DNA from: a virus
Direction: 5' to 3' (one strand)
Length of the DNA stretch: 64,000 nucleotides
IMG/VR virus record: IMGVR_UViG_3300021962_000021
Span: 1-64,000 of that record
The position numbers and the translations under genes are program-made. Of this stretch, positions 6,160 to 59,145 are shown piece after piece. Below the pieces are notes generated by a model that made no database searches, was not told where the DNA came from, and worked only from the letters and a program-made list of their open reading frames with translations. Every line of letters begins with the position of its first letter. Within the stretch, counting starts at the first letter, position 1.

Positions 6160-6759
6160 ATGAGATTAGTAGCATTTGGCGATTCATTTACACATGGTTA
6201 TGGTGTTAGTGATAGTATAAAATGGAAAGGTTCAGCGCATCCAAATAAATTTGAAGATTTTTATAGAAGAATGAACTCTTGGCCAAGATATTTGGCAGAA
6301 AAATTAGATATACCATTTATCAATATGGGACAATGTGCGATAGGAAATAAAGAAATATATGAAATAATAAAAGAGAATGTTGATGAAATTTTGGATGATG
6401 ATTTAATAATTGTAGCATTTTCATTTCCATATAGAAATACAACTAGTCCAAATGATGATTATAAAAAAATAGATGAAATATTAAAAAATCACAACAGATA
6501 TTATTTTAATGCATTCTATCCAACGTTTAATGATGAAGAACCAATTAATATAGATTTTAGTAGATTTATAAGACCTGATTATAGTTTTGCATCATATTTA
6601 CAAAATGTTGAAAAAGCAATTCAAAAACCTCTTTTTGAAAATAATTGTTGGTATTCTCCTTTAAATATAGAAGGAAATCAACATCCAAATTTAGAAGGGT
6701 ATAAACATATTGCTCAATTTATCTATGATGAATTAAAAGAAAAATTGAATTTGTTATAA
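6160..6759 (+). CDS. SGNH/GDSL-like hydrolase, paralogue 1
   Basis: A 199-residue protein with block I VAFGDSFTHGYG (nucleophile Ser in GDSFT), FINMGQCAIGN (block II/III glycine and asparagine region) and a C-terminal NQHPNLEGYKHIA with the block V His. These are marks of SGNH esterases, which often remove or transfer acetyl groups on sugars. Three related proteins occur at 13.7, 17.6 and 39.5 kb. Substrate cannot be read from the sequence. It sits between thioredoxin and a small DNA-binding protein, away from the main sugar island. Confidence 0.7.
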   Translation: MRLVAFGDSFTHGYGVSDSIKWKGSAHPNKFEDFYRRMNSWPRYLAEKLDIPFINMGQCAIGNKEIYEIIKENVDEILDDDLIIVAFSFPYRNTTSPNDDYKKIDEILKNHNRYYFNAFYPTFNDEEPINIDFSRFIRPDYSFASYLQNVEKAIQKPLFENNCWYSPLNIEGNQHPNLEGYKHIAQFIYDELKEKLNLL

Positions 6760-6983
6760 TGAAAAAAATTCCGTATATTAGGGTTATGTTAAAAGGTGAA
6801 GCGCATCCGATGCACAAACTTACTGAAAAGCAAGTTGAAACGATTAGAGAACTATGGAAAGTTGGACATCGTAATATAAAAGTATTGGCTAGAAATAATG
6901 GTGTATCACCTGCTAATATTAAAAAAATAGTTACAAACCAAACATGGCAACATATGCTAAAGTGGCCGTATGAAAAAGCTTAA
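6759..6983 (+). CDS. free-standing HTH/NUMOD-like DNA-binding protein
   Basis: A 74-residue protein. HPMHKLTEKQVETIRELW followed by LARNNGVSPANIKKIVTNQTW looks like the helix-turn-helix module usually attached to the C-terminus of HNH homing endonucleases (NUMOD/HTH type), here without a nuclease domain. It may be the remnant of a homing endonuclease or a small regulator. It overlaps the SGNH stop by one base (TAATG) and the following gene by 14 bases. Confidence 0.55.
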   Translation: MKKIPYIRVMLKGEAHPMHKLTEKQVETIRELWKVGHRNIKVLARNNGVSPANIKKIVTNQTWQHMLKWPYEKA

Positions 6984-7725
6984 AATGTCATTTTTTGATT
7001 TTAGTAAAACATATGATTATCCAATATTTTTACAAGAATGTTTAAATAAAGAACAAAATTCTATTTTTAGAAACATAATAGATACACATCATTCTTATGT
7101 AAAATATAAAGATGTTCCACAGAGAAGAATTAATTATTTAATTTATAGAACATCAGATAGTAAACCCATCGGCGCAATAGGAATATCTTCTTGCGTTTTA
7201 GCAATCGGTGTAAGGGATAGGTGGATTGGTTGGGATAAAGAAATTAGATTAATAAATTCAAATAAGGTAGCAAATAATTATAGATTTTGTTTAGTGCCTG
7301 ATAATGGTATTAAAAATGTAGGAACAATGGCACTTAAACTATTAAGAGAAGATGGTGCTAAAAGATGGCAGGAAAAATATGGTGATGAATTAGTATTATT
7401 AGAAACATTTGTCCAACCGCTTATTGAAGGTTCTGAAAATAAAAGAAATGGTGCAGTATATCTGGCCGATAATTGGGTAATGATTGGTGAAACATTAGGA
7501 AATTCTATAAAAAAGGCACCACTATTGTTATGGCAAAAAGAAAATTCTGCAAGAGGTGAATTGGCTAGAACTAATCCAGAAGCAGCTATAGCAAAGTATG
7601 CAGTGGGGAGAGAACACTATGTTGTTACCGAATCGCCTATAAAAAAAGTTTTTGTAAAACCATTAGTAAAAAATTGGAAAGAAAGGTTATTAAATAATGA
7701 AAGAAGCAAACAAACAATATTGTGA
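6970..7725 (+). CDS. DUF4338 (DruA-like) protein
   Basis: A 251-residue protein with the DUF4338 pattern: GVRDRWIGWDKEIR, then NNYRFCLVPDNGIKNVGTMALKLL, then WQEKYGDELVLLETFVQP, then GAVYLADNWVMIGETLG. DUF4338 is the family of DruA in the Druantia defence system; it is also seen in mobile elements, and its biochemistry is not settled. The gene overlaps the Mom-like gene by 29 bases, and a second, longer relative lies at 9.9 kb, so I infer a joint role in DNA modification. An ATG at 6985 is an alternative start. Confidence 0.65.
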   Translation: MKKLKMSFFDFSKTYDYPIFLQECLNKEQNSIFRNIIDTHHSYVKYKDVPQRRINYLIYRTSDSKPIGAIGISSCVLAIGVRDRWIGWDKEIRLINSNKVANNYRFCLVPDNGIKNVGTMALKLLREDGAKRWQEKYGDELVLLETFVQPLIEGSENKRNGAVYLADNWVMIGETLGNSIKKAPLLLWQKENSARGELARTNPEAAIAKYAVGREHYVVTESPIKKVFVKPLVKNWKERLLNNERSKQTIL

Positions 7726-8500
7726 TGTATCCAGAGTTACAATTAGAGAAATAAGTCCATCAATTGCAAAAGAAATTATAGTTAAAAAACACTATACGCA
7801 TGCATGGACGGCTTGTAGATACTCTTTGGGTATATTTTATAGAACCGATGAATCAAACGCATTAGGAGATAACGAAAAGTTAATCGGATGTTTAGTTTAC
7901 GGATTTCCAGTAGGTGCAAGAGCAGCAAATTCTATTTCCGAATTACTTACAAAAGATAATGTATTAGAACTTACTCGTCTTTATTGTGATGATGGGTATG
8001 GTGCTAACATAGAAAGTTATGCAATCGGACAATCATTCAAATGGTTTAGAGAAAACGATAAAGCAATTAAGGTATTGATTTCCTACGCAGATAACGGACA
8101 GGAACATTTGGGTGGTATATACCAAGCAACGAACTGGATATATCAGGGAATGAACACAGAAATTGCTTTAATGCCCAATTACGGAATATCTTTATCAAAC
8201 AACCCATACGATTGGATTCATAGTAGGACAGTATTCTCAATGTGGGGTAGTGGTAATTTAGAACACCTTCGTAGAGAAATCGGAAAGCAAGGATATAAAG
8301 AGTTTTGGAGAAGGGAAGAACCACCAAAGCATAGATATGTGCAAGTAATTACAGGTGATAAAAAAGAAAAGAAAGCAATCTTAAAATCACTAAAACACGC
8401 AGTAAGAGAATATCCAAAGAACGCAAAAGAATTTAATAAGGATATAGAACATCACCTAACAATAGCACCCGAAACAGAATTAGCAAGTAAGTTTTGGTAA
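7697..8500 (+). CDS. mom: Mom-like GNAT-fold DNA modification protein
   Basis: A 267-residue protein resembling the Mu Mom family: KKHYTHAWTACRYSLGIFY near the N-terminus, LIGCLVYGFPVG, ELTRLYCDD, ESYAIGQSFKW, ISYADNGQEHLGGIYQATNWIYQG. The last segment (SYAD, GH/H-GGIYQA, W-YQG) is the most diagnostic. Mu Mom converts adenine in DNA to a carbamoylmethyl derivative and protects against restriction. The C-terminal 60 residues are basic (KKEKKAILKSLKHAVREYPK) and could bind DNA. Target base and chemistry here are inferred. It directly follows a DUF4338 gene. Confidence 0.72.
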   Translation: MKEANKQYCDVSRVTIREISPSIAKEIIVKKHYTHAWTACRYSLGIFYRTDESNALGDNEKLIGCLVYGFPVGARAANSISELLTKDNVLELTRLYCDDGYGANIESYAIGQSFKWFRENDKAIKVLISYADNGQEHLGGIYQATNWIYQGMNTEIALMPNYGISLSNNPYDWIHSRTVFSMWGSGNLEHLRREIGKQGYKEFWRREEPPKHRYVQVITGDKKEKKAILKSLKHAVREYPKNAKEFNKDIEHHLTIAPETELASKFW

Positions 8501-8524
8501 TGTGGTATATTTTCCGTATATTAG
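8493..8524 (+). promoter_or_regulatory. promoter before the GIY-YIG-like gene
   Basis: TTTG (8493-8496), a 20-base spacer and TATATTAG (8517-8524) match the phage promoter pattern used elsewhere in the window. It begins inside the last codons of the Mom-like gene and points at the gene starting at 8551, allowing separate expression. Confidence 0.6.
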
Positions 8525-8550
8525 ATTATAACAAAAATAAAATCTGAAAT

Positions 8551-9942
8551 ATGAAAAAAAATTCTAAAATTAAATTTATTGAATTATTACAACACGATTT
8601 ATTAAGACCTAAACAAATTATAAAAATAGATGGTGATATAATACCACAAAGCGGATTAACAAGTTGCGTTTACCAATATTATGATGTTATAAACAAAAAA
8701 TGGTATATTGGTATGCATTTAGATACCGGAAAAGTTTATTGGACATCTACTACAAACAAAGAATTTAAAAAAATTTTAACAAACCATAATTCTCAACTAA
8801 TTTTAACGATTATTAAATGGGGGTCTGTGCAAGAAATGTATCAGTTAGAGCATGAATTACTTTCCAAAGTAAATGCTAGGGATAATAAAGATTATTATAA
8901 TTTATCAAATGGTAAACCTGGTACAAAAGAAATTAATTATAAATTAATAAATCAAATTGCATTAGAGTTAGATTGGATAAGAGATGATAGAAATGATAAA
9001 ACTATCAATGATTTTCAAATTTTAAAATATACAGATAATTTAAACAATATAATCTTTGGATTTAATTTTCTTTTAGAAAAAAATTCAATTAGTGATTTAT
9101 ATAATCATCCAAAACTACAAGTAAGAGCGGAAACTCTTGATAGAGAAAATATGGATAAAATTAAAGGTAGATTATCAATACAGGGTAATTCCGAATTTAC
9201 ATCTCCGCCAATTTTTCTAAAAAATAGAACATATAAAGGTGTGTTTTATAATTATTTATTAATAAGTGGAAACCACACAATAACTTCATATTGGGAACTT
9301 GGGACTCCATTTGATGAAGCAGAAATAAATTGTATCTTTATACCAGAAGAAATACACCAAAAGTTTTCAGATATAGAATTGCATATATTAGGAAATGAAT
9401 TAAATTCTGAAAAACGTGCATCAAAACCGTTTTCAAAAGATGATGCTTTTCGTGAAGGTTTATTTTTACATGAAGAAGGCAATTCTTGGAAAACTAAAGA
9501 AGTTTATGCACAATGGATAAGACGTGGACTTACACCAGCAAATGTATACAATGTTTGGGATAGAATAGACCAAGAAATTATTAATATTAAAATGAGAAAA
9601 TCAAATATGATTGTTATGGATTATGAGGGTGACCACAAATATATTGTTGATGAATTAATTAAAAATACTCCAAATGATATTTTTGCATGTCATTACTCAA
9701 GTGGAGCACCAGCATTAGACCGTATATTAATAAGTTATTGGGATACTCAAGAAGATAGAGAAATAAATAAATTAAAAAAACAAAAATCTATAAGAGTTTA
9801 TATAACACATCCAAGCGAAACCGTTAAAAATAAAACATGGCCTAAATTAAAAAATAGATTTGAAAAAATTCAACGTAAAGAAAATGGAACGCATGTTGAA
9901 TATGTTGAATTAGAAATGTATACAGAAAAAGAAATACGATAA
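8551..9942 (+). CDS. GIY-YIG-like N-terminal domain protein, possible homing endonuclease
   Basis: A 463-residue protein. Residues about 38-120 (VYQYYDVINKKWYIGMHLDTGKVYW..., then a SVQEMYQLEHELLSK helix and YYNLSNG) resemble the GIY-YIG-type domain of phage homing endonucleases. The middle (about 190-330) contains YLLISGNHTITSYWELG, reminiscent of a ParB-like fold, followed by a helical DNA-binding-like segment. The C-terminal third is unassigned. Its own promoter and its insertion between two modification genes fit a selfish element. The AT content and Lys/Asn/Ile bias are stronger than in its neighbours. Confidence 0.45.
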   Translation: MKKNSKIKFIELLQHDLLRPKQIIKIDGDIIPQSGLTSCVYQYYDVINKKWYIGMHLDTGKVYWTSTTNKEFKKILTNHNSQLILTIIKWGSVQEMYQLEHELLSKVNARDNKDYYNLSNGKPGTKEINYKLINQIALELDWIRDDRNDKTINDFQILKYTDNLNNIIFGFNFLLEKNSISDLYNHPKLQVRAETLDRENMDKIKGRLSIQGNSEFTSPPIFLKNRTYKGVFYNYLLISGNHTITSYWELGTPFDEAEINCIFIPEEIHQKFSDIELHILGNELNSEKRASKPFSKDDAFREGLFLHEEGNSWKTKEVYAQWIRRGLTPANVYNVWDRIDQEIINIKMRKSNMIVMDYEGDHKYIVDELIKNTPNDIFACHYSSGAPALDRILISYWDTQEDREINKLKKQKSIRVYITHPSETVKNKTWPKLKNRFEKIQRKENGTHVEYVELEMYTEKEIR

Positions 9943-9943
9943 T

Positions 9944-11167
9944 ATGAAATTTTGGGACACAGGCGAAGAAACAAATACCGAAACATTTGATTTCGAAAGA
10001 GAGAAAAAAGCATTGATAGATAATTTAGATTACCTATTTGCAATGTCCGTTCAGGAACAAACTCTATACAAAAAATGGTTAGAGTGGAATGAAGATTTGC
10101 ATGGTAGTATGAAACTACTTCCTGCACTTCATGCACAATACGATAAGATTTGGAAACCGAAAGATATAAACGATAAAGAAGGAACTATTGCAGAAATTCA
10201 AAACATGCAACCTTATGTAGAAATCGTTGAAGAAGGTGAAGAAGCAACTAAGTGGACTTATATGAGAAAGTTAATTAGTTCAATGGAGTTCACACCAAAT
10301 CCGGGTAGAAATGTAAAAGCATTCGTAAAGGATAGAGTAAGTGGTAAAGTATTGGGTGTAATATCATTGGGTTCGGACGTTACTTCAATGGGTGTAAGAG
10401 ATAAGTATATTGGGTGGACTAAAGAAGATAAATTCGAAAAAGGTAAGTTAAACAATACCGCAATCGGAACATCTATTATCGCAACTCAACCTTTGGGTTA
10501 CAACTTTTTAGGTGGTAAATTGGTATCAGCATTAACAACATCCCCCGCATTTAGAGAGCATTGGAAACAAAAATATGAGAATGTTCTAATCGCAGTTGGA
10601 ACAACATCGCTCTATGGTATTCACTCACAATACAATGCTATTCCACATTTCAAAACATTAGGTGAAACAGCGGGTAAGATTAGTATTAAACCTGATGATA
10701 AGTTTTATGACCCTTGGCATCAATGGTTGAAGGTGAATAGAGCAGATTGGTATGCAGAAGAAATCACCGAAGAAAGAGCAAGAAATGGTGCAAATATGGG
10801 TTATGATAGAAACGGACCTGTAAGTGGTATTAAACAAAAGATAATTACAAAAATATTCAAAGAATTGGGTATTAAAGCAGACCAATATCATCACGGATTT
10901 CAAAGAGGTGTATACTTCGCAATGATGTATGAAAATGGAAATGAATTCCTTTGTGATAAAATTACTGAAGATAAATTAGTAATGAAGGATAAGTTTGTAG
11001 AAGGTGATGATTATACAATCCGTTGGTGGAAAAAACAAGCAATCAAACGATATTCAAAATTGCACGAAGAAGGTAGATTAAAACCAGAAACTCTGTTTTA
11101 CGCGGATGCAATCGGATTGACTTGGGAACAAATGAAAGACAAATTTTTAGCAGACGTAGGAAGATAA
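9944..11167 (+). CDS. DUF4338-like protein, long paralogue
   Basis: A 407-residue protein. Its centre repeats the DUF4338 layout of the 7.0-kb gene: GVISLGSDVTSMGVRDKYIGW, then IATQPLGYNFLGGKLVSAL, FREHWKQKYENVLIAVGTTS, and YNAIPHFKTLGETAG. The N-terminal 100 residues are helical and the C-terminal 110 contain HHGFQRGVYFAMMYENG and end with a helical segment. Similar proteins occur in T4-like phages, but the function is not known to me. Placed between the Mom-like gene and the DNA polymerase, it is likely to act on phage DNA. Confidence 0.5.
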   Translation: MKFWDTGEETNTETFDFEREKKALIDNLDYLFAMSVQEQTLYKKWLEWNEDLHGSMKLLPALHAQYDKIWKPKDINDKEGTIAEIQNMQPYVEIVEEGEEATKWTYMRKLISSMEFTPNPGRNVKAFVKDRVSGKVLGVISLGSDVTSMGVRDKYIGWTKEDKFEKGKLNNTAIGTSIIATQPLGYNFLGGKLVSALTTSPAFREHWKQKYENVLIAVGTTSLYGIHSQYNAIPHFKTLGETAGKISIKPDDKFYDPWHQWLKVNRADWYAEEITEERARNGANMGYDRNGPVSGIKQKIITKIFKELGIKADQYHHGFQRGVYFAMMYENGNEFLCDKITEDKLVMKDKFVEGDDYTIRWWKKQAIKRYSKLHEEGRLKPETLFYADAIGLTWEQMKDKFLADVGR

Positions 11168-11170
11168 AAT

Positions 11171-13726
11171 ATGTATCAAAACATTTATTACGAAAGAACA
11201 AAAAACACAATTCACATTTGGGATGATGCCCGTGGTTACTTTACAATGCCATATCGAAAGTATGCATACAAAAAAGACCCATACGGACAGTATCGTTCTA
11301 TGAATGGTGATAAACTGACACGAATTTCAAAGTGGGAAAAGGATGAGGCAGATGACCTTTTTGAAAGTGATGTGCCGGAAACTACAAGAGTATTGGTTGA
11401 TATGTATGATAGTGATATCCCATCCACAGGTCATAGAATAATGACGTTTGACATTGAGGTGGAAATGATATCAGGTCTACCAAACACAAAAGAAGCTCAA
11501 AACGAAATCACAGCAATTGCTGCACATGATAGTGCAACAAATTTATTTGATGTTTTCGTATTAGATAAACAAAGAAAAATTAAGAAAAATGAGAACAAGT
11601 TTACCAAAGATGGTAGAGAAGTTAGTGTTCACATTTTCGATAACGAGAAAAATCTCCTATTTGCTTTCCTTAATTACTACGAAGAAGTTAATGCAACTAT
11701 TCTTACGGGATGGAATATAGACTTTTTTGATATTCCATATTTGTATAATAGAATTAAAAATGTTTGTGGTGAAGGACATGCGAAAAGATTATCCCGTATC
11801 GGACAATGTTTTTACTCACCTTACAGAGACAAGTGGACTTTCGGTGGTGTATCTATTTTAGATTATATCAATTTGTATAAACAATACAACTTTGGTTTGG
11901 AAAGTAGTTACACCCTAAACCACATAGCAACAAAAGAGTTGGGTAGAGGTAAAGTAGAATATGAAGGTAGTTTGGATGATTTATTCGAAAACGATTTAGA
12001 AAAGTTTATTGAGTATAACATTGTGGACGTTGACCTTGTTGTGGCAATGGATGCAAAACTGAAATTCATTGAGTTATGTAGGGCAATTTGTCACGCCGGT
12101 TATGTTCCGTATGAAGATTACATCTATTCATCAAAGTGGTTAGAAGGAGCGTGTTTATCTTATCTTAAAAACAAAGGATTAGTAGCAACCAATAAACCAA
12201 AAGATAGAAAGGAGAGAATGCAAGCACTACGAGATAATGATGAAGAAAAATTCATTGGTGCATATGTAAAAGAACCTATCGTTGGAAAGTATGATTGGAT
12301 TTATGACTTGGACTTAACATCTCTATACCCATCAATCATTATGACTTTGAATATCAGTCCTGAAACAAAGATTGGTAAGATACAAAATTGGGATGCAGAA
12401 AGATGGATTAAAGGTGAAGATGTAGGAACTTATACAATCGTTGGAAAAGATGATACATACGAATATACAAAAGAGGAATTGGCAGATGTAATTAAAGATA
12501 GTAATTTGGGTGTTGCAGCAAATGGAGTTTTATATAACCAAGATAAGCCGGGTTTGATTGCAGATATTCTAAACGATTGGTTTCAAAAACGTGTGGAATA
12601 TCGTAAGTTAGAAAAGAAATATGGTGAGGAAAAAAATACCGAACAATATGAGTTTTATGGTAAAAGACAACACGTTCAAAAAATTCTACTAAACTCAATG
12701 TATGGTGTATTAGGTTTGCCGGCGTTTCGTTTCTATGATGTAGATAATGCAGAAGCAGTAACTCTGACAGGACAAGTTGTAATTAAAAAGACAGCTGAAA
12801 TGGCAAACATCAAATATTGGAAAGAGCTAGGAACAAAAGAAGATTACAATGTTTATATAGATACCGACTCAATTTATATGATGGCAGAACCTTTGGTAAA
12901 GCATAGATACCCTGATTATAAAAACTTTGATGAAGAAAGAATGGCACAAGAGGTAAACACTATTGCAGAGGAAACCCAAACATTCTTAAACAAATTCTAT
13001 GATATGTTGGCAGAGAGATTTTTCTTCATACCAAAAGAGAAGCATAGATTTGAAATTAAAAAAGAATATATCAGTAAAGCAGGATTTTGGGTAGCAAAGA
13101 AAAGATACGCACAATGGATGATTTTGAAGAATGGTATTCCGTGTGATAAGTTGGATGTGAAAGGATTGGATGTAGTTCGTTCTTCGTTTCCAAAAGCATT
13201 TCAGGAGTTTATGGCAAGAACTCTAAAAGATATTTTAATGGGTAAGGATAACGCATTTATAGATGATTCATTACTTACTTTCAAAAAGAGTATGGCAGGA
13301 TTGCCTGTAAACAAAATTGCAAAGGGTGGAGCAATTAAAGAATTGAGTAAGTATGACAACGGTAGTTGGGTTAAAGGTAAAGCAATAGCAGACTTTGAGA
13401 AAGGAACACCTGCACACGTTAAAGCCGGAATAGCATACAATAGATTATTAAAATTCTTCAACTGTCCATACAAACACGAACCAATCAGAGATGGTGATAA
13501 AGTAAAGTGGGTATATCTTAAAACAAACCCATTGGGATTGGAAGGATTGGCATTTAAAGATTATAATGACCCTAAAGAGGTTATGGATTTTATCGAAACT
13601 TATATTGATAGAGATGAAATTTACAAAGCAGAATTAGAAAATAAGATTGATGACTTTTACAACGCATTGAAGTGGGAGAAAGTATCAAATGAAACAAAAA
13701 CAGCACAGAAATTTTTCGCATTTTAA
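11171..13726 (+). CDS. family-B DNA polymerase (gp43-like)
   Basis: An 851-residue replicative polymerase with an intact proofreading exonuclease: FDIEVE (ExoI, D94/E96), TGWNIDFFDIPYL (ExoII) and YNIVDVDLV (ExoIII). The polymerase motifs are DLTSLYPSI (motif A, about residue 381), KILLNSMYGVLG (motif B, about 505) and YIDTDSIYM (motif C, about 564). Length and motif spacing fit T4 gp43 and cyanophage polymerases. It works with the clamp (14.5 kb) and the clamp loader (16.0 and 17.2 kb). The gene is uninterrupted, with no intein or intron. Confidence 0.97.
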   Translation: MYQNIYYERTKNTIHIWDDARGYFTMPYRKYAYKKDPYGQYRSMNGDKLTRISKWEKDEADDLFESDVPETTRVLVDMYDSDIPSTGHRIMTFDIEVEMISGLPNTKEAQNEITAIAAHDSATNLFDVFVLDKQRKIKKNENKFTKDGREVSVHIFDNEKNLLFAFLNYYEEVNATILTGWNIDFFDIPYLYNRIKNVCGEGHAKRLSRIGQCFYSPYRDKWTFGGVSILDYINLYKQYNFGLESSYTLNHIATKELGRGKVEYEGSLDDLFENDLEKFIEYNIVDVDLVVAMDAKLKFIELCRAICHAGYVPYEDYIYSSKWLEGACLSYLKNKGLVATNKPKDRKERMQALRDNDEEKFIGAYVKEPIVGKYDWIYDLDLTSLYPSIIMTLNISPETKIGKIQNWDAERWIKGEDVGTYTIVGKDDTYEYTKEELADVIKDSNLGVAANGVLYNQDKPGLIADILNDWFQKRVEYRKLEKKYGEEKNTEQYEFYGKRQHVQKILLNSMYGVLGLPAFRFYDVDNAEAVTLTGQVVIKKTAEMANIKYWKELGTKEDYNVYIDTDSIYMMAEPLVKHRYPDYKNFDEERMAQEVNTIAEETQTFLNKFYDMLAERFFFIPKEKHRFEIKKEYISKAGFWVAKKRYAQWMILKNGIPCDKLDVKGLDVVRSSFPKAFQEFMARTLKDILMGKDNAFIDDSLLTFKKSMAGLPVNKIAKGGAIKELSKYDNGSWVKGKAIADFEKGTPAHVKAGIAYNRLLKFFNCPYKHEPIRDGDKVKWVYLKTNPLGLEGLAFKDYNDPKEVMDFIETYIDRDEIYKAELENKIDDFYNALKWEKVSNETKTAQKFFAF

Positions 13727-13728
13727 TT

Positions 13729-14475
13729 ATGAAGGCACTTAAATTTTGGAATCCAGAAGAATTTGATATTGCATCCTACAAATGGTCAATAAAAGAAAGA
13801 GTAGACAAAGAAATATTGGGAAACGGTTCTGATGAAGGAAATTGTTATTATACATTTAACGAATTAGGATTTAGAGGAGATTCTCCAAAAAAGAAAGGTA
13901 TACGAATAATGTCCGTTGGATGTTCACATACCGAAGGTATAAATGTGCACAATCATCAAACTTGGCCACATCTTATATCAAAAAAAATTCCAAATGGTGT
14001 GGATTTAAATTTAGGAATAAGTGGTAGAAGTAATGATTATATAGCAAGAACAATATTGACATGGTCGGATACTTTAAAACCATCTTTAGTTTTGGTTATG
14101 TATACATACCCATATAGAAGAGAGTTTTACAAATCAGATGGTAGTATTGAACCATATCATCCAACTCCTTGGGGATATTTTGATGAAGATACATTTGGTA
14201 GACGTGATTGGGCAAAGATGATAGAATTACAAAATGAAGAAGAAGATTTTATAAATTGGTATAAAAACCACCAATTAATAACATATTATTTAAAATCAAA
14301 AGATATTCCTTTTATTTGGAATGGAACTTTTGTAGGAACTGATTACACCGATGAAAATAGATTTGATGGTGATTATCCTAATTTTCCAGATGAAAATTTA
14401 CATGCAACAGGCGGTGAAAATGAAATCTATGTTGCAAAATTATTTAAACATATAAAAGAAAAATTTGAATTTTAG
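13729..14475 (+). CDS. SGNH/GDSL-like hydrolase, paralogue 2
   Basis: A 248-residue protein with IMSVGCSHTEGINVHNHQTWPHLI (block I, here GCSHT rather than GDSFT, with Ser retained), LNLGISGRSNDYIARTIL (blocks II/III) and a C-terminal NLHATGGENEIYVAKLF with a candidate block V His. It is inserted between polymerase and clamp genes in an otherwise pure replication run. The presence of four such proteins in the window suggests a shared pathway. The acyl or sugar substrate is unknown. Confidence 0.65.
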   Translation: MKALKFWNPEEFDIASYKWSIKERVDKEILGNGSDEGNCYYTFNELGFRGDSPKKKGIRIMSVGCSHTEGINVHNHQTWPHLISKKIPNGVDLNLGISGRSNDYIARTILTWSDTLKPSLVLVMYTYPYRREFYKSDGSIEPYHPTPWGYFDEDTFGRRDWAKMIELQNEEEDFINWYKNHQLITYYLKSKDIPFIWNGTFVGTDYTDENRFDGDYPNFPDENLHATGGENEIYVAKLFKHIKEKFEF

Positions 14476-19418: not shown

Positions 19419-20798
19419 ATGGCAAAAAAGAAAATTCTGTTACTTTCGGATGATTTAAGAATGGCAAGTGGTATTGCCAATGTATCCAAACAATTGGTAT
19501 TAGGAACGGTTGATAAGTATGATTGGGTTCAACTAGGAGCTGCAATCAAACATCCAGAAGCTGGAAAGGTTTTAGACTTAAATGAAGATGTTAGAAAAAG
19601 AACAGGCGTAGAAGATGCAAATGTGAAAATATATCCATCAGACGGGTATGGTAATCCAGATGCAATCAGACAGTTATTGATGGTTGAAAAACCGGATGCT
19701 ATCTTACACTTTACAGACCCGAGATATTGGATTTGGTTATATGAAATGGCACATGAGATTAGACAAACTACACCACTATTCTTTTATCACATTTGGGATG
19801 ATTTACCAGACCCAAAATACAATAGAGATTATTATGAAAGTTGTGATTGGTTGGGGTGTATTTCCAAACAAACATATGGCATCGTAAAGAGAGTCGGTAC
19901 GTGGGATAAAGAACCATATTGGAATAAATTACAAGATTGGCAAGTAAGTTATGTTCCACACGGTATAAATTCGGAAGATTATAAACCTGTAGAAGTTCCT
20001 GAAGATTTTAAGAAAAGTATTTTTGGAGATAAAGATTACGATTTTGTATTGTATTGGTCAAATCGTAATATCAGAAGAAAACAACCAATTGATGCAATGC
20101 TGGCATTTGAGGAGTTTAGACAAACATTAAGACCAGAACAACAAGATAAAGTTTGTATGTTAATGCATACTACTCCTGTTGATGAAAATGGAACTGATTT
20201 ACCTAAAGTCGCAGAACATTTAATGCCTGATGCAAATATCATTTTTGCACCAAATAGATACACAGAAACGGAATTAAACTATCTTTATAATTTAGCAGAT
20301 GTTACGATTAACTTAGCATCAAACGAAGGGTTTGGATTAGCAACTGCAGAATCGGTAATGGCTGGAACACCAATTATTGTAACGGTAACGGGTGGTTTGC
20401 AAGACCAATGTGGATTTAGAGAGAAAGGAAGTGGTAAGTTATTAACCGCAGATGATTATGTTGAAATTGGTTCTCTACATGATAAGTATAAAAAGAATAC
20501 ACACGTTTGGGGTGATTGGGTAACACCAACGTGGCCAGTTCGTTCAACAACAGGTTCAGTTCCTACTCCATATATCTTTGATGATAGAGTTGATTTTCAG
20601 GATGTAGCACCATTAATTAGAGGATGGTATGATATGGGTAGAGAAGAAAGAAAGAAAATGGGATTAAAAGGTAGAAAACATTTTATGAGTGAAGGTAAGT
20701 TGAGTAGAGAAGCAATGTGTAATGCATTGGTTGAGGGTATGGAAGGTGCATTCGCAAATTGGAAACCAATTAAAAAATACAATCTAATTAAGTTATAA
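19419..20798 (+). CDS. GT4-type glycosyltransferase
   Basis: A 459-residue GT-B enzyme. The N-terminal ILLLSDDLRMASGIANVSKQL resembles the acceptor-binding domain, YVPHGINSEDYKP marks the interdomain linker, and the donor domain has YNLADVTINLASNEGFGLATAESVMAGTPIIV, the E-x7-E motif of GT4. It opens the sugar island that runs to 34 kb. A similar enzyme follows directly. No membrane segment is seen, so it acts in the cytoplasm on a soluble or membrane-surface acceptor. Confidence 0.85.
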   Translation: MAKKKILLLSDDLRMASGIANVSKQLVLGTVDKYDWVQLGAAIKHPEAGKVLDLNEDVRKRTGVEDANVKIYPSDGYGNPDAIRQLLMVEKPDAILHFTDPRYWIWLYEMAHEIRQTTPLFFYHIWDDLPDPKYNRDYYESCDWLGCISKQTYGIVKRVGTWDKEPYWNKLQDWQVSYVPHGINSEDYKPVEVPEDFKKSIFGDKDYDFVLYWSNRNIRRKQPIDAMLAFEEFRQTLRPEQQDKVCMLMHTTPVDENGTDLPKVAEHLMPDANIIFAPNRYTETELNYLYNLADVTINLASNEGFGLATAESVMAGTPIIVTVTGGLQDQCGFREKGSGKLLTADDYVEIGSLHDKYKKNTHVWGDWVTPTWPVRSTTGSVPTPYIFDDRVDFQDVAPLIRGWYDMGREERKKMGLKGRKHFMSEGKLSREAMCNALVEGMEGAFANWKPIKKYNLIKL

Positions 20799-20799
20799 T

Positions 20800-22065
20800 A
20801 TGAAACCAACATTAATATTTCAAGCACCAATAGCAACAAGAAGTGGATATGGTGACCACGCGAGAGACCTTTTACACTCTCTTTATAAATTAGATAAATT
20901 TAATATCAAAGTAATAAGCACTCGTTGGGGACAAACACCAATGGATGCATTAAATTATAATAATGAATTTCACAAATGGATTGTGGATAATATCATTCCA
21001 AAAATAACAGAAAAACCTGACATTTATATGCAAGTAACTGTTCCAAATGAATTTCAACAATTGGGGCATTACAATATTGGAATCACTGCAGGTATAGAAA
21101 CAACAGCATGTGCATTAGATTGGATACAGGGATGTAATAGAATGGATTTAATTATTACACCATCTGAGCATGCAAAACTTAGTTTAGTTGGAACAGTTTA
21201 TAATGAAGCAAACCAACAGGGGCAATTAATTCGTCAACACAAAATTGAGAAACCAGTTGAAGTTTTATTTGAGGGTTTTGATGAAAATGACTTTGGAACT
21301 AATGTTGTTACAAATATTAAAGAATTAGATGAAATTAAAGAAGATTTTGTTTTTCTATTTGTAGGACATTGGTTGAAGGGTGATTTAGGAGAAGATAGAA
21401 AGAATGTTGGTATGATGATTAAAACATTTGCTATGGCATTCAAAGATGAAAAAGTAAAGCCTGCATTAGTATTAAAAACATCATCAGCAACATTTAGTGT
21501 AATAGACAGAGAAAATACTATTGCTAAAATTAGAGCTGCATTGGGAAAAGATTATGGTAAAGTTCCAGTATATCTTATACATGGTGATATGAGTGTATCG
21601 GAAATGAATGGATTGTATGAACATCCAAAAGTAAAAGCAATGTTAAACTTCACAAAAGGTGAAGGATTTGGTAGACCTTTGTTAGAATTTAGTTTAACGG
21701 GTAAACCAGTAATCGTTTCTAATTGGAGTGGCCATTTGGATTTCTTAAAAGAGGGAGCAGTATTATTAGATGGTGAATTAAAAAATGTGCATGAATCGGC
21801 AGCAGACCAATTCTTATTAAAAGAATCACAATGGTTTAATGTAAACATTTCAAAAGCATTACAAAGTATTAAAGATGTTTATAAAAACTATGATAAATAC
21901 AAAGTAGCATCTTTTCAATTAGGCAAGCAAAACAAACAAAACTTTGGTTTAGAAAAAATGACTAAATTGTTCGATAGTATTTTAAATCAGTATGGTATTT
22001 ATACTAAGATACAACCGAAGTTTCAACAACTTCAACTACCTAAATTGAAAATGTTAAATAAATAA
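20800..22065 (+). CDS. GT4-type glycosyltransferase
   Basis: A 421-residue GT-B enzyme with IFQAPIATRSGYGDHARDLL at the N-terminus, ITAGIETTACALDW, EVLFEGFDENDF in the linker, and the donor-site MLNFTKGEGFGRPLLEFSLTGKPVIV. It is related in layout to its neighbour but not a recent duplicate. It begins one base after the neighbour's stop. Function is inferred: sequential addition of sugars to a glycan. Confidence 0.82.
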   Translation: MKPTLIFQAPIATRSGYGDHARDLLHSLYKLDKFNIKVISTRWGQTPMDALNYNNEFHKWIVDNIIPKITEKPDIYMQVTVPNEFQQLGHYNIGITAGIETTACALDWIQGCNRMDLIITPSEHAKLSLVGTVYNEANQQGQLIRQHKIEKPVEVLFEGFDENDFGTNVVTNIKELDEIKEDFVFLFVGHWLKGDLGEDRKNVGMMIKTFAMAFKDEKVKPALVLKTSSATFSVIDRENTIAKIRAALGKDYGKVPVYLIHGDMSVSEMNGLYEHPKVKAMLNFTKGEGFGRPLLEFSLTGKPVIVSNWSGHLDFLKEGAVLLDGELKNVHESAADQFLLKESQWFNVNISKALQSIKDVYKNYDKYKVASFQLGKQNKQNFGLEKMTKLFDSILNQYGIYTKIQPKFQQLQLPKLKMLNK

Positions 22066-22538
22066 TGAGCAATTACAATCCAATATATCGTAAATTTGTA
22101 GATGATAGAAATAATGTTGCGCCTAATAAAATGACTAGGGGTAAATTCTATTTAATAAAAGAATACGAATATGTCGACGGTGATAAGGGTAGATTTACAG
22201 AAACAACCGCCCCAATTGTATTTACGCTTTTTGTATCAAAAGCAAAAGATATAATCCATTGTATAAAGGTATCAAATGTAAATCCAAATTTAATTAAAAG
22301 ATTTTTTGGTAAATTTGTAAATGAAGAAACTGAAAGATTGCAAATGAGAGGAAATGCAAAACAAATTTACGAAAAAACAATAGTTAAAATGCCAACAATT
22401 ACAAAAGATTCATATAGAACTTATAAAATAAGTGGATTAAGAAAGGTGATTGAATTAAATATGGATGTAAATGAAATTACTCCAAAAAATAAAAATGTAA
22501 TAGGAATAGATGTAAAATCACAAAAAAGAAATACATAA
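22065..22538 (+). CDS. conserved phage-type protein of unknown function
   Basis: A 157-residue basic protein. MTRGKFYLIKEYEYVDGDKGRFTETTAPIVFTLF suggests a small beta-barrel with a binding loop, and the rest is helical with many Lys residues. I cannot assign it to a named family. It overlaps the glycosyltransferase stop by one base. It does not look like a sugar enzyme and may be a virion or DNA-associated protein displaced into the island. Confidence 0.5.
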   Translation: MSNYNPIYRKFVDDRNNVAPNKMTRGKFYLIKEYEYVDGDKGRFTETTAPIVFTLFVSKAKDIIHCIKVSNVNPNLIKRFFGKFVNEETERLQMRGNAKQIYEKTIVKMPTITKDSYRTYKISGLRKVIELNMDVNEITPKNKNVIGIDVKSQKRNT

Positions 22539-22541
22539 TTT

Positions 22542-23021
22542 ATGACATCAAAAGAGTTTACAATTTGGTTAAAAGGATTTATTACAGCATGTAATGAGTA
22601 TTCTCCTACACCAAAACAATGGGATATAATTAAAGAAGAATTGGAAAACGTAAAGGATGATACTTCAGCTCCATCATTTCCTTTTGGAACACCAAACACT
22701 ACACCATATCCGCTAGACACAACTCCAATAAACCCAGTGATAGACCCGTTTCCAAAATGGCAATATCCACATTATGTAGACCCATATAATCCATACAAAG
22801 TAACTTGTAAAGGAGAAGAAACGCCAACTGGAACTACAATTACAACAACACCTGGTACTGGATTTGTTACGATAGCAAATCCAAATTTAGTATCGTGGGG
22901 CAGTGGTTCGATTACAACAAATAATCCACCATTTGGATTCGGAGTAACATCAACCGCATACGGATACCCAAGTGGTTCTGCATGGCATTATACAAATGGT
23001 GGAAACGATATAAAAGATTAG
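22542..23021 (+). CDS. WLKGF-type small phage protein with Pro/Thr/Gly-rich tail
   Basis: The N-terminal 45 residues (MTSKEFTIWLKGF, then PTPKQWDIIKEELENV) match a small conserved domain frequent in phages. The rest is Pro/Thr/Gly/Asn-rich with motifs such as YVDPYNPY and a glycine-rich end, and is probably disordered. The N-terminal domain is usually found as a free-standing protein, so the long tail is an extension. Function unknown. Confidence 0.5.
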   Translation: MTSKEFTIWLKGFITACNEYSPTPKQWDIIKEELENVKDDTSAPSFPFGTPNTTPYPLDTTPINPVIDPFPKWQYPHYVDPYNPYKVTCKGEETPTGTTITTTPGTGFVTIANPNLVSWGSGSITTNNPPFGFGVTSTAYGYPSGSAWHYTNGGNDIKD

Positions 23022-23022
23022 A

Positions 23023-23895
23023 ATGAAAAAAGTATTAGTTACAGGTGGTTGTGGTTTTATAGGATACGCATTAACTTTGGAATTAATTAAAAGAGGTTAT
23101 GAAGTTGATGTTATAGATAATCTTTCAATTGGTAAAGAAGCAAAGATACCCGAAGCATGTAATTTCTTGGGTGGTGATATTAGAGCAATGGATAACATAG
23201 ATGATAAACCATATCTTTATATATTTCATTTAGCAGCATTGAGTAGAATACAACCATCATTTCAAAATCCAAATTTGACATTTTCAATAAATGTAGATGG
23301 AACAAAGCAAGTAATTGAATACGTTTATCATAACAAATCTAAATTGATTTATGCTGGTTCATCTTCTAGACATCATAATCCAATACTATCACCTTACGCT
23401 ATGAGTAAACATATGGGAGAAGAATGGATAAAGATGTTTAAGGGGGTATATGGATTGAATGCGGAGATAGTTAGATTTTATAATGTGTATGGACCTGGTG
23501 AGTTAGTGGATTCACATATGGCAGCGGTGATTGGAAAGTGGAGAAGTCAAATTGAAAAAAATTATCCAATATCAATAGTTGGTGACGGTGAACAACGAAG
23601 AGATTTTACGCATATTGATGATATAGTAGATGGTTTAATTAGAATAGCAGAAAGTGATGAAAAACACGAAGATGCTTGGGAATTAGGAACGGGTAAAAAC
23701 TATTCTATAAATGAAGTTGCAGATATGTTTGTTAAAAAATTTAATTGCACTAAATTAAACATTTTTGACCAAAAAGGAAATTATAGAGAAACATTGAGAA
23801 TTAATAATGATGCTATCGAAAGATTAGGATGGCAACCTACTGATAAATTAAAAAGTTACATAAATGAAATTAAGTTACGCAATAACGGCTTGTAA
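23023..23895 (+). CDS. NAD-dependent sugar epimerase/dehydratase (extended SDR)
   Basis: A 290-residue protein with the Rossmann motif VTGGCGFIG (residues 6-14), a DVIDNLSIG acidic loop, the ADH-like FHLAALSRI, the catalytic YAMSK (about Y125/K129) preceded by a Ser/Thr cluster, and the NDP-sugar-binding RFYNVYGPG and DFTHIDDIVDG. It converts nucleotide sugars, as in UDP-glucose 4-epimerases. Product cannot be predicted. It supplies donor sugar for the adjacent transferases. The 3' end overlaps the next gene by 32 bases. Confidence 0.88.
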   Translation: MKKVLVTGGCGFIGYALTLELIKRGYEVDVIDNLSIGKEAKIPEACNFLGGDIRAMDNIDDKPYLYIFHLAALSRIQPSFQNPNLTFSINVDGTKQVIEYVYHNKSKLIYAGSSSRHHNPILSPYAMSKHMGEEWIKMFKGVYGLNAEIVRFYNVYGPGELVDSHMAAVIGKWRSQIEKNYPISIVGDGEQRRDFTHIDDIVDGLIRIAESDEKHEDAWELGTGKNYSINEVADMFVKKFNCTKLNIFDQKGNYRETLRINNDAIERLGWQPTDKLKSYINEIKLRNNGL

Positions 23896-24487
23896 CGAAG
23901 TCGAAGAAACCCTTAGATTGGTTACACAGTTATTAAACTACAAAGGAGAAAATTCAGAAGTTGTAGTTTTATTAGATACACCAAAAGCACCTACCGAATT
24001 ATTAGAATATTTGGAATTACAAGGTGAAGCAAATCACATTAACCTAATTGAATCGGAATTTGATAATGATTTTGCACAATGGAAAAATCTTTTAAATTCA
24101 CAATGTAAAGGTGAATGGATATTTCAGTTAGATGCTGATGAATACTTAGACCCAAATCTTATTGTAAATTTAGAAGAAATATTAGATACTAATACTGATA
24201 AAGATTTGATATTAGTTCCTAGAATTAATACTGTTGAAGGATTAACCGAAACACATATTCAAAAATGGGGTTGGAATGTAAATGAAAAAGGTTGGGTAAA
24301 TTTTCCAGATGTTCAAACCCGTATCTATAAAAATTCAGATAAGATTGGATGGAGTGGAAAGGTGCACGAAAGAATTGTAGGATTTGAATCATATACTGCA
24401 TTTCCAACGGATGAAGTGTATTGTATTAAACATCCAAAGACAATAGAAAGACAAGAAAAACAAAACAACTATTACGAAACTTTATAA
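23864..24487 (+). CDS. GT2-family glycosyltransferase
   Basis: A 207-residue GT-A protein: YAITACNEVEETLRLV at the N-terminus, VVVLLDTPKAP, and the metal-binding DxD in FQLDADEYLDPN (about 87-98). A WSGKVHERIVG segment matches the late part of the catalytic domain (His of the acceptor site). It resembles small LPS-type GT2 enzymes that follow WaaE/KdtX patterns. It shares a TAATG junction with the next gene. Confidence 0.82.
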   Translation: MKLSYAITACNEVEETLRLVTQLLNYKGENSEVVVLLDTPKAPTELLEYLELQGEANHINLIESEFDNDFAQWKNLLNSQCKGEWIFQLDADEYLDPNLIVNLEEILDTNTDKDLILVPRINTVEGLTETHIQKWGWNVNEKGWVNFPDVQTRIYKNSDKIGWSGKVHERIVGFESYTAFPTDEVYCIKHPKTIERQEKQNNYYETL

Positions 24488-25149
24488 TGGTATACATTTA
24501 TTATCACATATATGCTATTGATGGTGTTGAATCTATAATAGATGAACAACTAAAACTGATACAAACTCATTTTAATTTTCCATTTATACTTAATGTTGGA
24601 ATATCAATTGCAAATGAAAATGTATCATCAAAGGAAATTATTGAAAAATTTTATAAATTTAATAAACCAAATTATAAAATAAGAGATATTAGATGTAAAG
24701 GTAATGAATTTGTTACATTAGATTTAATAGAAGAAGATAAAAATATTTTCAAAGATTCTGATTATATTTTGTATATTCATACAAAGGGTGCATCTAAACA
24801 AAAAGAAGCTGTTTATAAAAACATAAAAACTTGGAGAGAGTTGATGAACTATTTTAATATAGAAAAGGTAAAAAGTGTTATTAAAATATTTGAAAAAAGT
24901 GATTTTAACACATATGGTGTTTTATATAGTGAATTAGCAAATTGGAAATTATATTCAGGAAATTTTTGGTGGATGAAAGGTAGTTATGCAAAAACAATTT
25001 CATTGGACTCTGTAAAAAGAAATAATAGATTTTATGCAGAAACTCAATTTGTAAGTATGGGTGAAAATTGGAATCCATACTCACCATACAATAGAACAGG
25101 TGAAAATCATTATGATATAGAATTTAAAAAAGAAGAGTATGCAAAATAA
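24487..25149 (+). CDS. glycosyltransferase-like protein (HTKG type)
   Basis: A 220-residue protein. YILYIHTKGASK and FWWMKGSYAKTI, with a TWRELMNYF helix, resemble the rhamnan-synthesis/capsular GT-like family often found in phage and capsule loci. No classical DxD is obvious, but the HTKG motif is typical. The coding sequence is very AT-rich. It is fused by overlap to the next gene (11 bases). Confidence 0.55.
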   Translation: MVYIYYHIYAIDGVESIIDEQLKLIQTHFNFPFILNVGISIANENVSSKEIIEKFYKFNKPNYKIRDIRCKGNEFVTLDLIEEDKNIFKDSDYILYIHTKGASKQKEAVYKNIKTWRELMNYFNIEKVKSVIKIFEKSDFNTYGVLYSELANWKLYSGNFWWMKGSYAKTISLDSVKRNNRFYAETQFVSMGENWNPYSPYNRTGENHYDIEFKKEEYAK

Positions 25150-26014
25150 AATAACATTTATATATAATCACAAACCAAACGAAACCTGGTCAACTCCACT
25201 ATCTTTATTGAATGAATTTAAAGAAAGAGGTTGGGAAACTGAAATAGTTCCAATTACTGCAGATGATGATTCTGTATTACAATTGTGGATTCAACAAGAT
25301 ACACCAACCGATATAGTATTGTTTATGGATTGGGGTAGAATTGATTCACCATATTTGGATAAAAGTTTAAAACCATCGGCATGTTGGATACAGGAAAGTG
25401 GTGATGACCCACAAAATTTTGAAAGAAACTATCCAAAAGCAAGTCGTTTTCATTATACAATTACACCGGATAGAGTATCGGCAGCCGAATACAGAGAAAG
25501 AGGTATAGATGCAGAATGGATACCACATTGGGCAGATACTGCAGTTCAATTTCCAATGAATTTAGAACCCGAATATGTTGCGGTAACGAGCAGAGGACCT
25601 GGTGGTTCTCAATTTTTAGATTATCTCACCAATTGGGCAGAAGGTGTAATTGGAAATAAAAACGGAATGGAAGCAAAGGAGCATACTGAATTTTTGAATA
25701 AAGGTTTAATGATTATTCAAAATAGTAGATGGGGTGAAATTACAAGAAGAATATTTGAAGGAATGGCTTGTGGTAAAATGGTATTAACCGATAGATTGGA
25801 TGTGAGTAGGGGGTTAGAAGAATTATTCATTGATGGACAAGATATCGTATTATATAATGATATGTTTGATTGTATTGAAAAGATTAATTATTACAATGAA
25901 AACGAAGAAGAAAGAGAAAGAATTGCATATAATGGAATGGCAAAGGTTATAGCAAATCATACACAAATACAAAGAGTAGATAAATTAATAGAAAAATGGA
26001 AAGGTTACCGATAA
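25139..26014 (+). CDS. CgeB/GT1-like glycosyltransferase
   Basis: A 291-residue GT-B enzyme. IVLFMDWGRIDSPYLDKSLKPSACWIQESGDD is typical of the CgeB-type N-terminal half, AEWIPHWADTAV marks the hinge, and NSRWGEITRRIFEGMACGKMVLTDRL is the donor-binding segment with the conserved Glu. Such proteins occur in spore-coat and S-layer glycosylation loci. It overlaps both neighbours by 11 to 19 bases. Acceptor and sugar are unknown. Confidence 0.72.
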   Translation: MQNKITFIYNHKPNETWSTPLSLLNEFKERGWETEIVPITADDDSVLQLWIQQDTPTDIVLFMDWGRIDSPYLDKSLKPSACWIQESGDDPQNFERNYPKASRFHYTITPDRVSAAEYRERGIDAEWIPHWADTAVQFPMNLEPEYVAVTSRGPGGSQFLDYLTNWAEGVIGNKNGMEAKEHTEFLNKGLMIIQNSRWGEITRRIFEGMACGKMVLTDRLDVSRGLEELFIDGQDIVLYNDMFDCIEKINYYNENEEERERIAYNGMAKVIANHTQIQRVDKLIEKWKGYR

Positions 26015-26736
26015 GTATAGGAATATTATCCTGGCATAGTGGACAAGTATTAGTAGATACATTAACCACATATTATGAAAATGGTTTGTTTGATATGGTA
26101 AATGATGTTACTATTCTATTTCAGGAAGTAACACCACAAGATATTCAAATTGCAACTCATTTTGGATTAGATTTTATAGGATTACAAAAGAACATTGGAA
26201 TCGGACAAGCATTCATTAGATTAACTGAAAATGCACAATCCGATTATGTTTTAGTATTGGAGCATGATTGGAATCTGATAGAGGATAGAGAAACCACATA
26301 TAACACATTAAAGAGAAGTTATCAAGCAATTGAAATGGGATTGGATGTTGTTAGATTAAGACATAGGAAAAATCCAGGCCACCCACATTTTTCTTTTCAA
26401 TACCAAGGAAGAGAATTGGAATATTATGATAAAGAAATTGAATGCACATCGCCGCATTTATTGGATTCAGTTCATTGGTGTGAACCGGCTGAAAAGTTTC
26501 CGGAACACATTAAAAAGAGTGAAGATATGTTTCATACCACATCTCGATATGGTAATTGGACAAACAATCCATGTCTTTATAAAAAACAATTTTACTTAGA
26601 TGTGGTTAGACCATTTGCAGGAGAAGGTATCGGATTAGAAGGAAATATAAGTAAGTGGTGGGCACAGCAGAATTATAAAGTTGGTCACAATGAAGGTTTA
26701 TTTATGCACAACGATTGGCAAAAATACGGAAGATAA
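25996..26736 (+). CDS. GT2-type glycosyltransferase
   Basis: A 246-residue GT-A protein. ISIGILSWHSGQVLVDTL at the N-terminus, IGLQKNIGIGQAFIRL, and VLVLEHDWNLIEDRE (acidic EHDW in place of DxD) are consistent with GT2-like enzymes. NNPCLYKKQFYLDVV and a Trp-rich C-terminus complete a standard length. It starts inside the last codons of the previous gene. Confidence 0.65.
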   Translation: MERLPISIGILSWHSGQVLVDTLTTYYENGLFDMVNDVTILFQEVTPQDIQIATHFGLDFIGLQKNIGIGQAFIRLTENAQSDYVLVLEHDWNLIEDRETTYNTLKRSYQAIEMGLDVVRLRHRKNPGHPHFSFQYQGRELEYYDKEIECTSPHLLDSVHWCEPAEKFPEHIKKSEDMFHTTSRYGNWTNNPCLYKKQFYLDVVRPFAGEGIGLEGNISKWWAQQNYKVGHNEGLFMHNDWQKYGR

Positions 26737-28103
26737 TGATAAAATTAATTATATTTGATTTAGATGGTGTATTGGTTGAGGCCAAAGATATACACTTTAA
26801 AACACTAAACCAAGCTCTTTGGGAAATTGGTAAAAGTGATAAGTATGTAATTTCAGAAGCAGAACACCTTTCAATATATGATGGATTAAAAACGAATCAA
26901 AAATTAGAATTACTTACACAAAATAAAGGATTACACCCAAATACATACGAAACCGTTTGGAATAGAAAGCAACATCTTACGATTGATGCAATATCGGAAT
27001 TACAACCTGATTTAGATAAAATTGAATTGTTTAAAGAGCTTCGTAATAGAGGTTATAAATTAGCAGTTGCATCAAACTCAATTAGAAGGTCAGTATTGGT
27101 AATGTTGGCGAAGATTGGTATTATTGAGTATATGGATTTAATCATCTCTAATGAGGATGTAAAGAACTCTAAACCACATCCTGAAATGTATTGGAAGGCA
27201 ATGAGTATGATGGGTGTTTTGCCAGAACAAACTCTAATCGTAGAAGATTCACCACATGGTTTGTTAGCTGCGAGTAGAAGTAGAGCAAATGTATTAAGAG
27301 TAGATAATCCAAAAGATTTGGTATTATCGAAAATTATTAGTAAATTAGAACAAAGGACAAATATGAAAATACCAAAATGGCAAGGTGGTAAGATGAATGT
27401 TCTTATCCCAATGGCAGGAGCAGGAAGTAGATTTCAACAAGCAGGATATACATTTCCAAAACCCCTAATTGATGTTGAAGGTAAACCAATGATTCAAGTT
27501 GTTGTTGATAATTTGAACATTGATGCAACTTTCATTTATGTAGTTCAGAAAGAACATAGAGCAAAATATAATTTAGATACTCTATTAAACTTAATCACTC
27601 CAAATTGTAAGATTGTAGAAGTTGATGGAATTACAGAAGGTGCTGCATGCACAACTTTATTAGCAAAAGAATATATTGATAACGATGCACCATTAGTTAT
27701 GGCAAACTCTGACCAATTTTTAGAGTGGGATTCCAATGAGTTTATGTATAAGATGATTGAACAAAAAGTTGATGGTGGGATTGTTACATTTACAGCAACA
27801 CATCCAAAGTGGTCATTCGCTAAAGTGGATGAGTATGGGTATGTTACGGAAGTAGCTGAAAAGAATCCAATTTCAGATATAGCAACTGTTGGTGTTTATT
27901 ATTGGGCTAAAGGTTCTGATTATGTAAAATATGCAGAACAAATGATTGAAAAGAATATCAGAGTAAACAATGAGTTTTATGTTTGTCCTGTTTTCAATGA
28001 AGCAATTGGTGATGATAAAAAAATCAAAACATTTAACATTGATAAGATGTGGGGATTGGGAACACCTGAAGATTTAACATATTACTTAGAAAATCATAAA
28101 TAA
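26736..28103 (+). CDS. bifunctional HAD phosphatase - sugar nucleotidyltransferase
   Basis: A 455-residue fusion. Residues 1-205 form a HAD phosphatase: FDLDGVL with D8/D10, VASNS (motif II), KNSKPHPE (Lys motif III), VEDSPHG (motif IV). After a linker, MNVLIPMAGAGSRFQQAG, then TFPKPLIDVEGKPMI, begin a sugar-1-phosphate nucleotidyltransferase, with NSDQFLEW as the metal site and a GTPEDL end. I start at 26736, where TAATG overlaps the previous stop. Order fits dephosphorylation and activation of a sugar bisphosphate, as in the heptose pathway, but the substrate is inferred. Confidence 0.82.
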   Translation: MIKLIIFDLDGVLVEAKDIHFKTLNQALWEIGKSDKYVISEAEHLSIYDGLKTNQKLELLTQNKGLHPNTYETVWNRKQHLTIDAISELQPDLDKIELFKELRNRGYKLAVASNSIRRSVLVMLAKIGIIEYMDLIISNEDVKNSKPHPEMYWKAMSMMGVLPEQTLIVEDSPHGLLAASRSRANVLRVDNPKDLVLSKIISKLEQRTNMKIPKWQGGKMNVLIPMAGAGSRFQQAGYTFPKPLIDVEGKPMIQVVVDNLNIDATFIYVVQKEHRAKYNLDTLLNLITPNCKIVEVDGITEGAACTTLLAKEYIDNDAPLVMANSDQFLEWDSNEFMYKMIEQKVDGGIVTFTATHPKWSFAKVDEYGYVTEVAEKNPISDIATVGVYYWAKGSDYVKYAEQMIEKNIRVNNEFYVCPVFNEAIGDDKKIKTFNIDKMWGLGTPEDLTYYLENHK

Positions 28104-59124: not shown

Positions 59125-59145
59125 AAAACGCTAATATGTAAAGTA

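Follow-up and report, generated by a model that had tools for sequence, protein, structure and literature searches.

A Mom gene and two DUF4338 genes upstream of a phage DNA polymerase

Does the co-location of a Mom-like GNAT gene with two DUF4338/DruA-like genes reflect a viral DNA-modification system in which the DUF4338 proteins act with Mom? The locus in question lies in the window analyzed here, the first 64,000 nucleotides of IMG/VR virus record IMGVR_UViG_3300021962_000021. The complete record comprises 238,219 bp, may be a fragment, and carries T4-like replication genes encoding a DnaB-type helicase, PhoH, a clamp loader and a family B polymerase. The source of the cassette is a large T4-like bacterial virus. 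The genes of the region are as follows.

6759..6983, + strand: small HTH protein of 74 aa, first gene of the cassette (PHROG 517 HTH, E 2e-4)
6970..7725, + strand: sDru, short DUF4338/DruA protein (DruA PF14236, E 7e-23; 81.7 bits against a curated cut-off of 27)
7697..8500, + strand: Mom (PF25680, E 1e-41; 143 bits against a Pfam cut-off of 27.1; PHROG 1384 'Mom-like DNA modification protein', E 2e-44)
8551..9942, + strand: GIY-YIG homing-endonuclease-like ORF of 463 aa (N-terminal match to PHROG 7504, E 1e-5)
9944..11167, + strand: lDru, long DUF4338/DruA protein of 407 aa (PF14236, E 2e-21; 77.0 bits against a curated cut-off of 27; PADLOC DruA, E 5e-21)
11171..13726, + strand: family B DNA polymerase (PHROG 262, E 4e-180; context only)

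The sequence-only reading had recognized a short DUF4338 protein, Mom and a long DUF4338 protein upstream of the polymerase, and Pfam and PHROG scans confirmed these assignments with scores far beyond chance. Its description of Mom as lying between the two DUF4338 proteins is right as to order, although the GIY-YIG-like ORF separates Mom from lDru. This ORF has no Pfam match and is missing from most relatives, where the spacing between Mom and lDru is about 28 nt; it probably stands outside the modification machinery. The HTH and sDru genes overlap by 14 bp and the sDru and Mom genes by 29 bp, suggesting that these three genes are probably co-translated. In most relatives the HTH gene is kept at the same site, and the polymerase is the usual right-hand neighbor of the cassette. 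Values of dN/dS between 0.06 and 0.15 against relatives indicate that sDru, Mom and lDru are protein genes under purifying selection. The whole virus record contains one Mom gene and exactly two DUF4338 genes, sDru and lDru.

Several other features of the window were recorded. Two SGNH/GDSL-like hydrolase candidates lie either side of the cassette region, one at 13729-14475 with a weak GDSL match and one at 6160-6759 called by eye from sequence. Genes for glycosyltransferases, an epimerase, a HAD/nucleotidyltransferase and a sugar C-methyltransferase at 19419-28103 and 29233-30468 apparently constitute a phage-borne glycan cluster. A full-length GOLLD RNA (RF02032, 278.6 bits) is present at 60152-60564 (+), its neighbors in the same phage being a tmRNA gene at 58753-59125 and about 15 tRNAs.

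Mom retains the active-site residues of phage Mu Mom

The Mom profile matched the structure of Mu Mom (8bv8) with an E value of 7e-34. Residues H32-Y33, R94, N104, E106-S107, S129, D132, Y142, N146 and H175 are kept; H32, Y33, S107 and D132 are invariant in the Mom alignment and align with 8bv8. The active-site set of Mu Mom, consisting of the H-Y pair, the equivalent of Ser124 and the Asp of SxAD, is thus intact in the window protein. Since 8bv8 is titled as an S124A mutant and has Ala at that Ser column in the alignment, the column would correspond to the mutated site. Mom has been described as an enzyme that places an acyl-type group on adenine N6 (PMC7824862), and homology together with the intact active-site residues makes it most likely that the window Mom would transfer such a group onto adenine N6 of phage DNA.

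The closest sequenced-phage relative of this Mom is in Polaribacter phage P12002L (43%), with no DUF4338 gene among the Mom-flanking genes listed. DUF4338 is likewise absent from most Mom phages, and no DUF4338 gene was found within the flanks examined of 19 Mom loci in bacterial genome contigs. Two Mom-bearing contigs of one MAG probably represent phage contamination.

Linkage of Mom and DUF4338 recurs among related phages

Co-occurrence in other genomes, which the sequence-only reading had named as a check, was examined by a neighborhood survey of 171 IMG/VR loci gathered with Mom, sDru and lDru as seeds. lDru was located downstream of Mom, on the same strand and within 8 kb, in 62 of the 63 loci with enough downstream sequence, and Mom was located upstream of lDru in 23 of the 28 with enough upstream sequence. 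The intervening gap was 66 nt or less at 46 of the 63 testable loci, 28 nt being the commonest value. Gaps above 66 nt contain inserts, the two inspected being ParB-like and HNH genes, and the mobile-looking genes found in this position differ between loci: DGQHR plus HNH (L035:8988-10511), ParB-like (L004:8855-10021) and GIY-YIG (window 8551-9942), domain labels other than HNH and GIY-YIG having been read by eye. Among 66 loci, the slot directly before Mom held Mom2, a Mom paralogue, in 53, sDru in two, both in two and neither in nine, an alternation indicating that sDru occupies the Mom2 slot. Linkage between Mom and DUF4338 genes therefore recurs, and it persists in rearranged loci: L087 has the order Mom2, Mom, sDru, GT, Pol, Mom3, lDru and L093 the order sDru, Pol, Mom, lDru; three Mom and three DUF4338 (DruA) genes are present in a phage record of 365 kb.

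These counts do not represent independent events, since the linked loci are relatives of one another and include near-duplicates; most of the linkage evidence stems from one group of related phages, and beyond that group Mom and DUF4338 occur apart. Many cyanophages and pelagiphages carry lDru homologues, and no Mom was detected in any of the four such genomes tested, indicating that Mom is not required by lDru in every phage.

The supply of most linked loci by one phage group, and the mobile-looking inserts (GIY-YIG, ParB-like and HNH) in the gap, would fit an explanation in which co-location is synteny inherited near the polymerase combined with homing endonuclease traffic, the genes being functionally unlinked. 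We consider this quite improbable, as a 28 nt spacing is maintained across Mom proteins 70-100% identical to one another, the genes remain within a few kb despite reordering (L087, L093 and G635), and Mom2 and sDru are swapped in a single slot.

sDru and lDru have a predicted GNAT fold

The sequence-only reading held that DUF4338 proteins have no settled chemistry and proposed structure prediction as a test of a shared GNAT fold. The family is not wholly obscure, DUF4338 having been called a GNAT domain in 2024 (PMC10853773), and the fold itself is therefore not new. By AlphaFold (AF2) models of sDru (pLDDT 81.5) and lDru (pLDDT 84.5), both proteins have a GNAT fold, and the nearest solved structure in VIA was Mom in each case, although plain Foldseek put other GNATs first for both models and placed 8bv8 outside the 50 best E-values. 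For sDru the VIA match to 8bv8 covered 172 residues at 4.1 A with a Z score of 14.8, above the Z of 12-13.6 given by other GNATs. In lDru the GNAT core spans about residues 85-353; 8bv8 was first with a Z of 10.3 over 181 residues, a match tied with ordinary GNATs such as AAC(6')-Ib (Z 10.1) and SpeG, which was about as good. A fold search of a viral library with sDru returned mostly unnamed GNATs and nothing named Mom, and sDru had no close relative in the sequenced-phage collection.

The two proteins also behaved differently in profile comparisons. The sDru family profile aligned with the Mom family profile by hhalign over 224 collinear columns with a score of 49.5 (probability 90%), the best of 21 decoy families taken from the same loci scoring 23.8. 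The equivalent comparison of lDru with Mom gave a probability below 1% and no similarity at the sequence level, leaving fold comparison as the basis of lDru-Mom kinship. When sDru and lDru were merged into a joint profile the Mom signal was lost, a first pointer to the existence of two DUF4338 classes. Profiles divide the family cleanly into these classes, termed here M and D. Class M consists of sDru, short bacterial forms and transposase-fused forms, and Mom-type residues are found in most members examined; in sDru they are H41, Y43, R105, N116, T119, T146, Y164 and N168-W169. sDru thereby shares with Mom most of the active-site set, namely the H-Y pair, the Arg, a Ser/Thr and a GxxYxAxNW motif. 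An alignment of 14 representatives of Mom and class M has in common the H-Y pair, the fourth-strand Arg, a Ser/Thr preceded by a position that is mostly Asn, and GxxYxAxN[WF]xxxG. The conserved Asp of Mom is replaced by Gln, or by Leu, in phage sDru (Gln in most) and is Asp or Glu in bacterial class M proteins.

DUF4338 domains of the Mom-like class are fused to a transposase in bacterial genomes (L194, L196 and L227), the transposase part, Tnp_DNA_bind (PF14706), being identified by Pfam in L194 and by sequence resemblance in the other two. The L194 fusion matched the Pfam Mom model with an E value of 1.8e-4, below the Pfam cut-off.

The GNAT fold is common to protein, polyamine and small-molecule acetyltransferases. 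Mom alone might thus modify DNA, the DUF4338 proteins being GNATs with protein or small-molecule substrates (host defense proteins, for example, which they would inactivate) and linked to Mom as fellow counter-defense genes. The generic nature of the fold, with lDru fitting Mom, AAC(6')-Ib and SpeG about equally well, is compatible with such a role, as are the occurrence of cyanophage lDru without Mom and the reading of DUF4338 fused to DndF as a protein-targeting GNAT co-effector (PMC10853773). We nonetheless regard this division of labor as unlikely, albeit a serious possibility, given that sDru has most of the Mom-specific residues, obtains its best structural score with Mom and sits in the Mom2 slot, and that a class M domain is also attached to a DNA-handling protein, the transposase. 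The Mom2 slot and the nearly identical residues suggest instead that sDru acts similarly to Mom, and on these sequence features modification of DNA bases is its most likely activity.

lDru groups with DruA of Druantia type I

Class D comprises lDru, its cyanophage and pelagiphage homologues, DruA of Druantia type I and DruA of DruA-NurA-HerA operons. Its invariant positions, in lDru numbering, are G121, G138, R152, P183, G191-K192-L193, T220, G225, S228, Y230, G240 and R369. The Mom-type His is missing from the class and Gly stands at the Ser position; lDru also has no NW, these positions having been placed by eye on the alignment. Class D may use different chemistry or represent a partner subunit. 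Druantia DruA (L207/L218) scored 88 bits against the lDru profile and 37.5 against that of sDru, and lDru matches DruA of Druantia type I in class and in full-length architecture, L218 lying in a type I operon whose identity DruD and DruE confirm. A search of the 238 kb virus record, possibly a fragment, gave no DruE or DruD match at E <= 1, so that the phage cassette is not Druantia, and a phage-borne Druantia system was ruled out as a candidate.

In gammaproteobacterial contigs L219, L220, L221 and L222 a DruA gene is followed by genes for a NurA nuclease and a HerA ATPase. PADLOC detects DruA in these contigs, with no Druantia partner where neighbors were scanned, and this arrangement is possibly an undescribed defense operon.

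The disordered N terminus of lDru carries a short FWDT motif. A GT-B glycosyltransferase-like gene is often present between lDru and the polymerase (L030:1690-4033 and many relatives), and an N-terminal M..FW[D/E][S/T] peptide is common to lDru and nearly all of those GT-B copies (33 of 37 homologues), FW[DEN] being rare in other ORFs of the window. The shared peptide is perhaps a common docking signal.

The resemblance of lDru to type I DruA of L218, the loss of Mom-type catalytic residues and the presence of DruA-like proteins in Synechococcus phages (PMC12774648) would also be expected of a non-enzymatic decoy, a mimic of host DruA that binds and blocks Druantia-type complexes. This we judge improbable: the GNAT pocket motifs GGKL and T..G..S.Y hardly vary between phages and Druantia, suggesting that activity is retained, and a decoy would not need a fixed linkage to Mom.

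A proposed multi-enzyme modification cassette

The reading that we favor, with some confidence, is that the locus is a DNA-modification (anti-restriction) cassette of two or three diverged Mom-superfamily GNATs, with Mom, sDru and lDru all acting on phage DNA. sDru would provide a second Mom-like GNAT, perhaps modifying bases in another sequence context or from another donor than Mom. lDru, the phage form of Druantia-type DruA, would most likely act on the same DNA, whether as partner, specificity factor or second-step subunit. The modified phage DNA would then resist host restriction-like defenses. Modifying their DNA is a recognized way for phages to escape defenses; according to PMC12904381, citing Ojima et al. 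(2024), type I Druantia is evaded when Druad1 promotes methylation of the phage DNA. The evidence consists of gene content, modeled folds, conserved residues, linkage and purifying selection; from it we infer that DNA is the substrate of sDru and lDru, that they cooperate with Mom and that protection results. The interpretation of the sequence-only reading is supported in part, through the recurrent co-location and the GNAT fold of DUF4338.

A broader and rather doubtful extension is that DUF4338/DruA constitutes a second Mom-related family of DNA-base acyltransferases, phage DruA being an orphan self-marking enzyme that writes the self/non-self mark of Druantia type I. In that case modification and restriction by Druantia type I would depend on an acyl base mark, not methylation, and DruA-NurA-HerA operons would use the same mark. 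The findings bear on what DruA does in Druantia type I and on the role of transposase-fused DUF4338 domains. Part of DUF4338 is placed near Mom in fold, residues and genome position, giving a direct hypothesis of DNA base acylation in which the residues are named, and a widespread group of large phages brings Mom-superfamily proteins together in one cassette, in numbers reaching three or more.

Comparison with known systems

Judged by the papers searched, three points appear to be new: the closeness of DUF4338 to Mom, its division into two classes, and the phage cassette. A limited literature search, which is no proof of absence, found no paper pairing Mom with DUF4338 or DruA with GNAT. One GenBank record names a cyanophage lDru homologue 'methylcarbamoylase mom', indicating that its annotator met the same resemblance.

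The DUF4338-DndF proteins (PMC10853773) belong to the same Pfam family and received the GNAT label there. They were proposed to be protein-targeting co-effectors of a restriction ATPase, whereas the phage DUF4338 proteins are free-standing and one has Mom-like residues. The DruA-like proteins of Synechococcus phages (PMC12774648) are lDru homologues in T4-like marine phages, although the cyanophage and pelagiphage genomes tested here lacked Mom. With DruA of Druantia type I (PF14236; PADLOC PDLC00002) lDru shares its class and architecture, but in the phage it is linked to Mom and not to DruE or DruD. Group 2 jumbo phages (PMC7824862) are likewise large and carry Mom-type GNATs for which adenine modification is predicted; their Mom domains are described as fused to restriction-endonuclease domains, whereas the window Mom stands alone beside DUF4338. 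The window Mom is a clear homologue of phage Mu Mom (PF25680; PDB 8BV8, methylcarbamoylase Mom) with active-site residues kept. Relative to Mu, the cassette adds two Mom-superfamily partners beside a replicative polymerase, one (sDru) with Gln in place of the Asp and the other (lDru) without the Mom-type His and Ser/Thr.
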